Shown in pieces: positions 1 to 12,962 of a stretch of DNA of 64,000 nucleotides. The stretch's first letter is position 1. The number at the start of each line of letters is the position of its first letter. Both the position numbers and the translations under genes were made by a program. Source of the stretch: an uncultured Paracoccaceae bacterium (GTDB lineage Bacteria; Pseudomonadota; Alphaproteobacteria; Rhodobacterales; Rhodobacteraceae); assembly GCA_905182355.1 (NCBI GenBank), contig CAJJBH010000035.1:1-64000 (forward strand), written 5' to 3'. The notes beneath the pieces were generated by a model that was not told the DNA's origin, did not search any database, and saw only the letters and a list, made by a program, of their open reading frames with translations.

Positions 1-161
1 GATTGGACACTCTCATACCATTCGGCGCATCGTGTTGACGGATATGGCGCAGCTGCCGTTTCAAGTATTTCACCGAGTGGCCGCATCTCCTGTGCCTGAG
101 CCACGCTAACAGCGGGGGTAAGCATCAGCGCCACAACGGCGCAACGAATGAATTTCTTCAT
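1..161 (-). CDS. Exported protein, N-terminal part only (runs off left edge)
   Basis: This reading frame is too short for the ORF track. It starts at an ATG read leftward from 161 and stays open to the window edge (53 codons). The first 23 or so residues (MKKFIRCAVVALMLTPAVSVAQA) form a typical Sec signal peptide: Lys/Arg start, hydrophobic core, then an AQA-like cleavage site. The mature part visible (EMRPLGEILETAAAPYPSTR) gives no recognisable family. It is probably a small periplasmic or outer-membrane protein. The gene lies outside the integrase module to its right and is read away from it. Function unknown. Confidence 0.6.
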   Translation of the reverse strand, partial: MKKFIRCAVVALMLTPAVSVAQAQEMRPLGEILETAAAPYPSTRCAEWYESVQ

Positions 162-734: not shown

Positions 735-803
735 TGTCACGGTGATATCACTTTTAAGGTTGACTGCAATGGCGTCACGGTGACATAAGAAGTCACGGTG
801 ACT
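735..803. promoter_or_regulatory. Three-copy palindromic operator between divergent RHH genes
   Basis: TCACGGTGA occurs at 737-745, 775-783 and 793-801. The second copy extends to GTCACGGTGAC and the third to AGTCACGGTGACT, which are symmetric around a central G. The starts are 38 and 18 bp apart, all inside the 103-bp gap between two divergent ribbon-helix-helix genes. Short palindromes in tandem are what Arc/Mnt-type repressors bind. The third copy ends a few bases from the AGGAG ribosome-binding site of the right-hand gene, so occupancy would block that promoter. Confidence 0.6.
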
Positions 804-1452: not shown

Positions 1453-2303
1453 CATTCGCACAGGCCGCAAACGCATATCGTGACGCCGGGAAATCTGAAC
1501 GCTTCTTGGCTGCCATCGAAGATCATTGGAAAGATACGGCAATTCGTGAGGTCAGTGCGGGTGCAATCCGTCAATCCGCTCGCAAGCTGTATCCGAATGT
1601 AAAAGCGGCGACCCATAACCGCCAAGTCATTGTCCCAACGCAGGCGATCATTAATTTTGCCGCTGAGTTAGAATGGTGCGCCTCTATTAAGGTGAGGCGG
1701 TTCAAGACTGCAACGAAAACGAAGACACCTGCAACACGGGCTTGGATCGAGGCGTTTGGCGATCAGGCTAATGCTGATAGGTTGCCTCACTTAGCGGCGC
1801 TGGCCTATTTCATGTTTGGAACGGGGGCGCGACGTGGTGAGGCTTGCGGTCTGCTGTGGTCAGATGTTGATCTATTTGGAAAGAAAGCCACTATCCATCA
1901 ATCCAAGGTTGAGGACACCCGTACCGCGCACATGCCGCAAGCTGTCGTTGTCGCAATTGCCAACATTCCTACGAATCGCAACCCAGATGAACCTGTATTT
2001 GGATATGCCAGCGGCGAAAGCGTTGGTCAGGTTTGGGCGAATGTTTGTGAACGTGCGTGCATTGAAAAGTTGACCCCACATTCCTGTCGCCACGGATTCG
2101 CAACCACGATGCTACAGGCTGGAATTGATCCAAAGACCGTCGCCACGCGCGGCGGCTGGAAAGACGTTGGCACAGTGATGAAACACTATGCACACGCAAT
2201 GGATGACCCCACTGTCACGGATGTTCTTTTTGACACACCCGTGACACAGGGCCAACAGATATACCCCGTAACCTCTTATAAACAAAAAGGAAAATCAATA
2301 TGA
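1278..2303 (+). CDS. Tyrosine recombinase / phage-type integrase
   Basis: A 341-residue site-specific recombinase. The catalytic set is complete: Arg185 in GTGARRGEAC, Lys210 in the beta-hairpin, His268-x-x-Arg271 in HSCRHGF, Trp294 in RGGW, and nucleophile Tyr304 in KHYAH. The N-terminal 60 residues (IYKRGAIWHYRGTVAGRRLR) resemble the arm-binding domain of phage and island integrases, and residues about 60 to 140 the core-binding domain. It integrates or excises DNA by strand exchange at att sites. The start overlaps the excisionase-like frame. It is the last gene of the module, next to housekeeping serB. No tRNA or obvious direct repeat marks the att site in the 141 bp downstream. Confidence 0.9.
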   Translation: MSVEIYKRGAIWHYRGTVAGRRLRGTCGTENKKIAQRVAAEAETASWRRHLDGPSAHVTFAQAANAYRDAGKSERFLAAIEDHWKDTAIREVSAGAIRQSARKLYPNVKAATHNRQVIVPTQAIINFAAELEWCASIKVRRFKTATKTKTPATRAWIEAFGDQANADRLPHLAALAYFMFGTGARRGEACGLLWSDVDLFGKKATIHQSKVEDTRTAHMPQAVVVAIANIPTNRNPDEPVFGYASGESVGQVWANVCERACIEKLTPHSCRHGFATTMLQAGIDPKTVATRGGWKDVGTVMKHYAHAMDDPTVTDVLFDTPVTQGQQIYPVTSYKQKGKSI

Positions 2304-2444
2304 ACAAGGCCCTTCGTTGGGGAAGGGTGTCCCATTTATTGGGATAGGGGCTGATGCAGGCTGGCACAACAGATATAACGACGCTAGAACGCCCCATCGT
2401 CAATTTTTTGCGACATCAGTGACGCCAATCGGAAACTTTGCCTT

Positions 2445-10025: not shown

Positions 10026-11120
10026 CTAGGCGGCGCGTTGGTCGGCAAGAGTTATAGCCTCAAACGATTTTAAGATAGGAAAAACTGGCTTGCCGTGTTC
10101 CGGCAGGCCAGTTCGTTCAAATAAAGCCAATAAACTTGCACTTAACTGGTCCGGTTTTCTTCGAATACGACCAATGTAGAGGCTTTCAAACGAGGAACCA
10201 GCCACTAACAACGTCTCATGTTCAGGAAGCAACAAATGTGTATATGTAACAGTTGAACCCGTCGGCTCGTACCGAGCGGCAAAACCGTTGACCAGATGGC
10301 GGGCAGGGACCAGGACGGCCTCTTGTCCGAACATATATTCGACGTCTGAACCACGAATTATCAATCTTTGATCTGGCGCGGCAATGATATCTTGGAGTAG
10401 GCCAAAATAGGGCGCGCGCAATCGAATTGGTGCAAAGCTACCCAGTGCCGGAACAGTTCTAGTCACCCGCTGAAGGATCGGAACAGCGCCGCGGCTTTCG
10501 GTCATAACTGTATCACCGCGTTCCAGATTTCGTATGTTTTTGAAACCCAAAGGTGTCGAAACAGGCGTATCACCCATCATTGTGGGCATTGGTCCAACGG
10601 GTTCAATCTGATCTGACAAAGCCACAAACACGGCATCACTGGAAAACGTTCGATCGCCCTTGCCAAGGATTGCATCGTGTAAGTCTTCGATAAAAAACGG
10701 TTTAGGGTTCTGAACTTACACCGATGTAACTGTTGAATCCTCTGGGCGTTCCAAAGACAGTCGGGCCCAGCCTGAAGGGGCATCCCACGAAAATGAAATG
10801 CGGATAACGTCCGCCCGTCCTATGCCGCGCCATCTTAACGCTGCATGGCAAACGTCACCGTGATCGCTGTGAACAAGCGTAATACCGCCCCCCGGAATTG
10901 CCTGAATAGAAAAGGCGCGGCTCCACGGGAACACGCGGTCATATCCGAACAAGACTTGCGGTTTTCCATTTGGGGACATCCGCGTTTCCAGCATCGGAGT
11001 GCCGCGGTCCAAAGCGGCACCCGGCGTCATATCTATTTGCGAAGCCGCGCGCCGATCAACGCCAAGACCATTGGGGCAAAATCGACCTTCTTTGTGATCT
11101 GCTGATGCGATCCACGTCAT
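10026..11120 (-). pseudogene. Hint-domain protein with one in-frame TAA
   Basis: The track gives two ORFs (10716-11120 and 10026-10631) but they share one frame: after DSTVTSV the TAA at 10718-10716 is followed by VQNPKPFFIEDLHDAILGKG and runs on without a break. The joined gene has 364 codons. The N-terminal half (MTWIASADHKEGRFCPNGLG, FSIQAIPGGGITLVHSDHGD) is a beta-rich domain that I recall before Hint domains in Rhodobacteraceae. The C-terminal half is a Hint (hedgehog/intein-like) domain: TPLGFKNIRNLERGDTVMTE, LRAPYFGLLQDIIAAPDQRL, FGQEAVLVPARHLVNG. The gene starts seven bases after the original end of the upstream Hint gene. One substitution would restore it. Confidence 0.72.
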
Positions 11121-11126
11121 TTCAAA

Positions 11127-12701
11127 TTAAGCCACATCTTGTCCGTTGACCAAAACCTTTGCCTCAAATTGGCGCAAAATACGGCGTGCTGCGGGACTGT
11201 AACCAAGTCCGGTATCAGGGTCTATTTACGGGAAAAGGGTGCAAATTTCTTCGACCACATTGTGTTCAAAACTTTTGGTAGTTTGTGGGCCAGGTAAGAA
11301 GCGTTCAGTCGCAAGACCAGCGGAATAAACAACCTGATGGCGATCAAACATGAGATGCACATAGGTGACATCACCGCCTTCACAGCGGGTTACGGACCTG
11401 TCGTTCACAAGGTCTTTGGCAGAGACAAGAACCTCTTGTTCACCAAACAGCAGTTCAGCAAGATTATCGCCGATTAAAATACGGTGCTCTGGCGACAGCA
11501 TCAATTCATCATGGGTGCCAAACGTGTTGGCGCAAATGTGGATTGGGGCAAAATTACCCTCAGCTGCGACGGTCCGTTGACCAATCCAGCGTAAGGGTTG
11601 CAGTCCCTCGTCCTTGGTCAACACAAGATCGCCCAACAGTAGGGTCTCAACACTGCGTTGACCTTGTTGGGTTGCGATCATAGTGCCCGCGACAAAACAT
11701 GGGATAGAACTGACATTAACAAAACCGATGTCGGTGTTTGTGCCATTGTCGATTGTGTAAGTGAAATTGAAGTCTTCAACATCTCCATCACCCAAAATGT
11801 TGACCGTACCATTAGCGTTAAGGGAGATGGTTTGACCTGTGTTTAGGAGGATTGGCACACCAACAGTGACGGGCTGACCATTCAGGTGTGTGATTGTTAG
11901 GCTGCCACCGCCGCCGTTGATGTCATTGGTAAGAACATCAAGGTCTTTGGACCCGTTTGGATACAGGTTTGTTGAATCTGTAATCGCAATAACTTGTGTC
12001 TGAACCGAGTTCCCCGCGATCAACAAGTTTGAATCGTAACTTGAGTCTGAAACATCGGCAACAGCGATGCGGATGGTGTTCGTCACACCTGAATTCACCG
12101 GAATGATCAGTGTCATCGTGACGGTAAAGCCATCCATCTCTGTGTTGTACTGATCTGATGTGTTGTCGATATAGAGGTTGGAGTTGTTGGTAGAGTTGAT
12201 GTTGCCCGGGTCGGTATCCCCGTTTCCAACAGCCATATCGACCAACGTTCCATTGATCCAAACGCCCACGAAATCCTGATAGACGGAGTTTTGGAATTCT
12301 GGGTATTCCTCGGATGAAAAGACAAACTGCATCGTCATGAAATCACCTGTCGGGGTGAAGTCGATATCCAGAATAGCCGCGTCACGGGTGTTTGTTCCCG
12401 CAGCTGCGTTAAGCTGACTGTCGTTGTTTATACCTCTGGTGTTTGTAGATGTGTTCGTCGACTGGTTTGATTGACCGGATGAATTTGTAAAATCGTCGGC
12501 GTCCCCCGTCGATAAAATTACCCCTGTGTCACCGGGTGTCACACCCGGTGCTACGGCATCCCCGTTTGTGTAAATGCCTGATGAATCGTTGTCGCCAAAG
12601 AACGTTGCCCCAGACACGACAACACCGTCTCCAAAGATATTCTGCGCCATTTGAAGCGCAGTTGCGTCCGTATCAATCGGAAGTTCCGATGCTGCTATCA
12701 T
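11127..12701 (-). pseudogene. Choice-of-anchor L / Hint protein with a late in-frame TAA
   Basis: The start at 12701 follows GAGG six bases upstream; the track ORF is 11 codons too long. Residues about 5-240 form a choice-of-anchor L domain (TALQMAQNIFGDGVVVSGAT, FVFSSEEYPEFQNSVYQDFV). Next come a beta-sandwich repeat region (DLDVLTNDINGGGGSLTITH) and a Hint domain from PCFVAGTMIATQQGQRSVET. A TAA at 11228-11226 cuts off 32 further in-frame codons (IDPDTGLGYSPAARRILRQF, then EAKVLVNGQDVA and a stop at 11127). That tail matches what I recall at the end of intact relatives. The protein has no Sec signal peptide; such proteins are often secreted by type I systems. Since only the tail is lost, partial function is possible. 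Confidence 0.72.
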
Positions 12702-12962
12702 GTCTACCTCTGCCCAGTTTAGGAGACAGCACACGTCAAACAGCCCACAGGTTATCCTGTGTTTTCAAACGTACATCATTGGTACGAAACGCCGTTCGTT
12801 GACGGCTTTACTGCTAAGTGCCCTGCCTCGGGTCATATTATTGCATAAATCATAGCACGAGAGTTTTTGTTTTGTTAATAATTTTCATAGGATAGGCCTT
12901 GGCATCGCGCCATTTTAGCCACATTCCTGTAGATGACCCTGATCCAAGCCTGAGGAAACACA

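Follow-up and report, generated by a model that had tools for sequence, protein, structure and literature searches.

The operator palindromes between two divergent ribbon-helix-helix (RHH) genes covary with residues of one of the two encoded proteins, RHH1. This covariation is statistical, and it is the result of widest interest in the present analysis. In the window, which is the whole 64,000-nucleotide stretch of DNA analysed, RHH1 is most likely a Mnt-like repressor of a rightward operon encoding the second RHH protein (RHH2), an excisionase-like protein (xis) and an integrase (int). This assignment is proposed because the operator sequence tracks RHH1 and agrees with the AmrZ-DNA structure, and because the window obeys the same rule. 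It is probable that the window carries an immI-type head, as in phage P22, ahead of an integration module, and that this head is read by RHH1, which would repress both the rightward operon and its own gene.

Genes and attachment sites of the prophage end

The features considered are listed below by window position.

368-712, - strand: RHH1, 114-aa Arc-family putative repressor in Mnt-like position (PF03869, 1.8e-13, 50.6 bits; cut-off 20.4)
735-747: candidate operator O1, TGTCACGGTGATA, one arm imperfect; 29 bp upstream of the RHH1 start codon; relatives have a site at the same position
760-765, + strand: TTGACT, probable -35 box of the rightward promoter; the O2 centre is 19 bp downstream of its first base
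774-784: candidate operator O2, GTCACGGTGAC, within the promoter spacer
792-802: candidate operator O3, GTCACGGTGAC, near the expected transcription start; its place equals that of Omnt in P22 immI
816-968, + strand: RHH2, 50-aa Arc-family protein in Arc-like position (PF03869, 7.6e-5, 22.9 bits; cut-off 20.4)
965-1099, + strand: orf44, a small 44-aa ORF (ORF call only), overlapping the RHH2 stop and the xis start
1099-1452, + strand: excisionase-like protein of HTH_17/AlpA type (PHROG excisionase, 1.2e-6)
1278-2303, + strand: tyrosine integrase, 341 aa (PF00589, 1.1e-24)
2298-2337, - strand: damaged serC leader RNA copy left by integration (RF00517, 36.8 bits)
2309-2334: attR core, 26 bp, GCCCTTCGTTGGGGAAGGGTGTCCCA, with an identical attL on contig C16 of this genome

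The window holds one end of a prophage of a marine bacterium, located between serC and serB, in the serC leader; this is concluded because an integrase, the 26-bp attL/attR repeat and a terminase gene were all found. Both the prophage nature of the DNA and its P22 immI-like layout had been overlooked in the initial annotation. The prophage is split between contigs C35 and C16, and its middle lies on other contigs. The serC gene of the same genome, on C16, has an intact leader with the same 26-bp core. The gene for the terminase small subunit (PF03592, 3e-24) is also on this attL contig, about 2 kb deeper in the element. Thus the features by which an integrated prophage is recognised, namely an integrase, attachment sites in direct repeat and a virion gene, are all present. 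In species of the same genus, the serB-side DNA downstream of int occurs without the element, and homology begins at window positions 2306-2309. The shared core is part of the serC leader RNA (RF00517). Empty sites have this leader intact, and in a general Rfam scan of the window it was the only match.

The location of the attachment core inside the serC leader (window 2298-2337; 2891-2942 in locus L358) means that a structured leader RNA serves as phage attachment site, which may be unusual. Related elements in other genera end near tRNA genes. One version of the module, KFIVRLP/PMQLRLP (L060, L063, L071 and L080), has int about 200 bp after RHH2 and ends near tRNA-Cys at equal distance in several Rhodobacteraceae genera; it is apparently one widespread element.

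RHH2, which heads the rightward operon, starts with a TTG codon preceded by AGGAG. It overlaps orf44, orf44 overlaps the xis-like gene, and int overlaps xis. The orf44 product had no family match in Pfam or PHROG. The excisionase-like protein has a 57% identical homologue ahead of int in a same-genus element. In a sister species of the same genus (L352, genome G682), the same xis, int and attachment site were found, and RHH1 and RHH2 are replaced by an XRE-type repressor plus another HTH_17 protein, which argues that the switch head is exchangeable. The xis-like and int ORFs share a 175-base overlap in different frames, and an overlap of the same size occurs in L352.

Two other regions of the window may be mentioned. 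The ORF at 3-161 (- strand) is signal-peptide-like and cut by the contig end; it is probably prophage cargo, since no relative was found among 40 related genomes. The two proteins encoded at 10026-10631 and 11226-12734 (- strand) contain CFVAGT/GDLVLTKD-like stretches, and by eye resemble Hint-type domains.

The control region and its relatives

RHH1 is read leftward and RHH2 rightward, with the operators between them. The initial annotation had described three palindrome copies within 65 bp between two Arc-type genes of 114 and 50 residues, with the right copies extended, and these points were all confirmed. TCACGGTGA occurs on the + strand at 737-745, 775-783 and 793-801; copies 2 and 3 extend to GTCACGGTGAC, and copy 3 further to AGTCACGGTGACT (791-803). 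Both proteins score above the PF03869 cut-off. The only other TCACGGTGA copy in the window, the fourth, is at 10855. Dinucleotide shuffles contained 0.47 copies per window and never four, and the chance of three copies inside 65 bp, calculated from base composition, is about 1e-8 per window. The 11-base GTCACNGTGAC has nine sites in the 2.74-Mb genome: seven are inside coding genes, and two are those of the window, whose operator region is the sole intergenic cluster. No other chromosomal RHH1 target was found among the genome-wide GTCACNGTGAC sites. The operator form is GTC-AC-G-GT-GAC, with spacings of 38 (O1-O2) and 18 (O2-O3).

RHH1 relatives were found in 18 of 298 genomes of the family, mostly beside a divergent RHH partner; wider scans gathered 194 distinct divergent RHH pairs. 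Repeated palindromes of the form XYZ-N5-X'Y'Z' were present in 135 of the 194 intergenic regions, as compared with 12 in dinucleotide shuffles. The spacings in these 194 regions were enriched at odd values only, with a peak at 5. O1-O2 distances in relatives are mostly 34-37, and O2-O3 distances mostly 16-20. Conservation of the palindrome in relatives with the same gene pair had been set beforehand as a refutation test of the initial annotation, and the pair was found to recur widely with palindromes at matching places. A window-type integrase lies within 2.5 kb downstream of RHH2 in at least 83 of the 194 pairs, and an antirepressor in at least 15 (lower bounds, since few seed proteins were used for detection); none was seen with both.

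The sequence TTGAC precedes an operator in 126 of 158 called regions, and in 110 it lies 18-20 bp from the O2 centre; on the other strand the count was 20. O2 and O3 are thereby placed on the putative rightward promoter. A generic sigma-70 consensus scan gave no full promoter match in the operator region, and the -10 box is weak; the promoter assignment is supported by the conserved TTGAC placement in relatives, not by the consensus scan.

The layout matches that recorded for P22 immI, where the divergent mnt and arc genes have Oarc placed between -35 and -10 and Omnt at the start site, with ant after arc. Both systems have a long (Mnt, 82 aa; RHH1, 114) and a short (Arc, 53 aa; RHH2, 50) divergent RHH gene round a short control region. 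In both, the -35/-10 spacer contains one operator and the start site another, as judged for the window by sequence position only. The P22 Omnt core, ACGGT, is also the core of the window operator; however, the arms are GTC in the window and TCC in P22. The window also differs in having three copies of one operator rather than one per protein, and orf44-xis-int rather than an antirepressor downstream of the short RHH gene. Divergent Arc-family pairs are also present in Paracoccus phage vB_PyeM_Pyei1, Edwardsiella phage GF-2, Klebsiella phage ST11-VIM1phi8.1 and Pseudomonas phage UFJF_PfDIW6; unlike the window, these phages have an antirepressor-type gene (Ant, KilAC/Rha or Bro-N) after RHH2, and not xis-int.

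Covariation of operator sequence and RHH1

The nearest solved proteins to RHH1 are AmrZ (3qoq, 8e-7) of Pseudomonas aeruginosa, then Mnt. In the AmrZ structure, the strand contacts are K18, V20 and R22, and the half-sites of the repressor site are five bases apart (PMC3325190). Val20 is said to exclude thymine, and a change from GGC to GTC costs 9.8-fold in affinity (PMC3325190). K18, V20 and R22 correspond to K11, M13 and R15 of RHH1, and the half-site spacing of five is the peak among the 194 regions. AmrZ combines Val with GGC half-sites, whereas the window RHH1 combines Met with GTC. Autoregulation, a property of AmrZ, is predicted for RHH1; unlike RHH1, AmrZ is a chromosomal regulator with distant sites.

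The specificity residues assigned to RHH1 are R7 in the N-terminal arm, and K11, M13 and R15 in the strand (GRESD-KFMLR). In the non-redundant set, K.M.R strands were found with GTC arms in 26 of 29 cases and K.[IV].R strands with GGC in 22 of 23 (Fisher 4.6e-13); Q.N strands occur with AGC arms, and Q.K with ACC. The top mutual-information links pair arm base 1 with residue 18 and arm base 2 with residue 20, the same as the contacts in the AmrZ structure. Near-identical RHH1 proteins that differ at the Met or Ile/Val position of the strand have different operators (L015/L193, L050/L051 and L144/L129). The P.Q.R-type RHH2 strands are unchanged across GTC arms (18 regions) and GGC arms (45); RHH2 family members in relatives have the form KPLQLRLP...SQNSE.

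The inner bases follow the N-terminal arm: GR.[SA][DE] goes with AC (14/14), PSD..D with GA (6/6), and R[TS]L.D with CA or CT (8/8). This link persists within the GTC-armed regions alone. Arm and strand determinants combine freely; for example, GR.SD was found with K.M, Q.M, Q.P and Q.A. The window fits the rule, with GRESD-KFMLR facing GTC-AC-G-GT-GAC. These data suggest a two-part code for Arc-family RHH proteins, which we hold to be somewhat more probable than its opposite. Strand residue 1 would specify arm base 1 (Lys, G; Gln, A), residue 2 would specify arm base 2 (Val or Ile, G; Met, T; Asn, G; Lys, C), and Arg would specify C; the N-terminal arm would specify the inner dinucleotide (GR.S[DE], AC; PS...., GA; R[TS]L.D, CA or CT). 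Prophages might swap these parts, so changing immunity specificity while the promoter layout is kept. No published RHH recognition code was found in a literature search that reached few subscription journals.

Outer-arm predictions were recorded before the out-of-sample test. The first test set consisted of PF03869 genes of 399 Pseudomonadota genomes and phage records; among its loci with strong tandem sites 8 agreed and 2 disagreed, a small sample with a score threshold picked after viewing. In a second set of new loci, outer arms were correct in 34 of 38, as compared with a mean of 25.9 and a maximum of 33 for permuted labels, and Q.N proteins dominate this set. Its loci with no inner-base prediction also have mostly AC. 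The best tree of the domains has 16 residue switches, only 2 of them on supported branches since the domain is short; independence of the switches on the tree is weak, and shared ancestry may contribute to the covariation.

Several groups lie at the edge of the rules. P22 Mnt (H.N.R, arm TCC) does not fit the tendency of N to go with G at the second base, and its outer arm is outside the rule; its N-terminal arm (ARDDP) goes with inner AC. Near the start codons of the amrZ orthologues (L268-L283) tandem sites are absent; since the known sites are distant from the gene, these orthologues are no test of the code. QRKVRFP proteins are the RHH2-side partners of Q.R.R proteins and have their own site class (CCC or CAC). 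The QLRIRLP/QRKVRFP pairs, which include many of L370-L421, have CCC-ACSGT-GGG or CAC-type operators, a class outside the rules. Some K.M.R relatives have asymmetric operators with one AGC arm. AGC-N5-GAC operators were seen in L032, L034, L094, L134, L165, L167 and L248, mostly with a PSD-type RHH1 N-terminal arm, and mixed RHH1/RHH2 binding is a possible origin.

Proposed switch and alternative readings

RHH1 binding, repression, the role of RHH2 and the inactivation of RHH1 are inferred steps of the following scheme. RHH1 would bind each GTC-N5-GAC palindrome as two dimers, with the GTC arms read by Lys11, Met13 and Arg15 of the strand, and with the inner AC linked to Arg7 in the N-terminal arm. 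In a lysogen, RHH1 would fill O1-O3. Occupancy of O2 and O3 would cover the rightward promoter and shut off the genes for RHH2, the 44-aa product, excisionase and integrase; at O1, RHH1 would control its own gene and limit its own synthesis. RHH2 stands at the place of P22 Arc, and as an Arc or Cro counterpart might limit its own operon after RHH1 is lost.

The initial annotation had placed a switch of two RHH proteins ahead of xis and int. The switch itself is supported by the overlapping operon genes, the position of O2 and O3 on the promoter, and the XRE-type repressor at the same place in the same-genus element; the use of the sites by both proteins is not supported as stated, as the operator follows the strand and N-terminal arm of RHH1, and identical RHH2 strands occur with different operators, but RHH2 may still bind. 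A form of that proposal, in which RHH1 and RHH2 would compete for all three operators like CI and Cro, is rather doubtful. Both are Arc-family proteins facing the same sites, and the two P22 repressors use neighbouring sites. Gln at the first contact position of RHH1 is usually matched by Gln in RHH2 (23 of 28 non-redundant Gln regions), and position 18 of RHH2 is informative on the first arm base; however, this link may reflect only co-inheritance with RHH1. The same P.Q.R strands accompany both GTC and GGC, and with Pro as first contact residue the Lys contact of AmrZ is impossible. It is less likely still that RHH2 binds another element, such as the conserved TTGACnGCAAT block, as an activator or an Arc-like repressor. 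Here TTGACGCAAT reaches past the -35 box and is constant across operator classes with P.Q.R RHH2, but the block can be accounted for by a -35 box, or perhaps by a divergent, overlapping pair of them, and unlike RHH sites it is not palindromic.

Two further readings are very improbable. The module adjoins xis and int, and the palindromes might be accessory sites for integrase or excisionase instead of operators; yet they are 1.5 kb from the attachment core and on a promoter, their sequence changes with RHH1, and they also occur in pairs with an antirepressor and no integrase downstream. A plasmid-type partition or antitoxin module, which we regard as equally remote, is hinted at by matched PHROG families labelled partition protein and by weak scores for HicB or FitA antitoxin RHH models. 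However, those PHROG families are Arc-like phage proteins, no toxin or ParA gene was found alongside the pair or in relatives, and xis and int lie downstream.

Repression of the RHH2-xis-int operon by RHH1 remains our preferred reading, in which an immI-type switch head of the window governs excision and integration, and not antirepressor synthesis. The presence of such a head on an excision/integration module suggests that the heads of phage switches can be exchanged as parts. Phages, plasmids and toxin-antitoxin systems often carry RHH repressors, but operators are known for few of them. Genomes yield about 150 natural repressor-operator pairs, which indicate that a few residues predict the site. 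If this holds true at the bench, the operators of unstudied RHH repressors, and the immunity groups of prophages, would be predictable from sequence.
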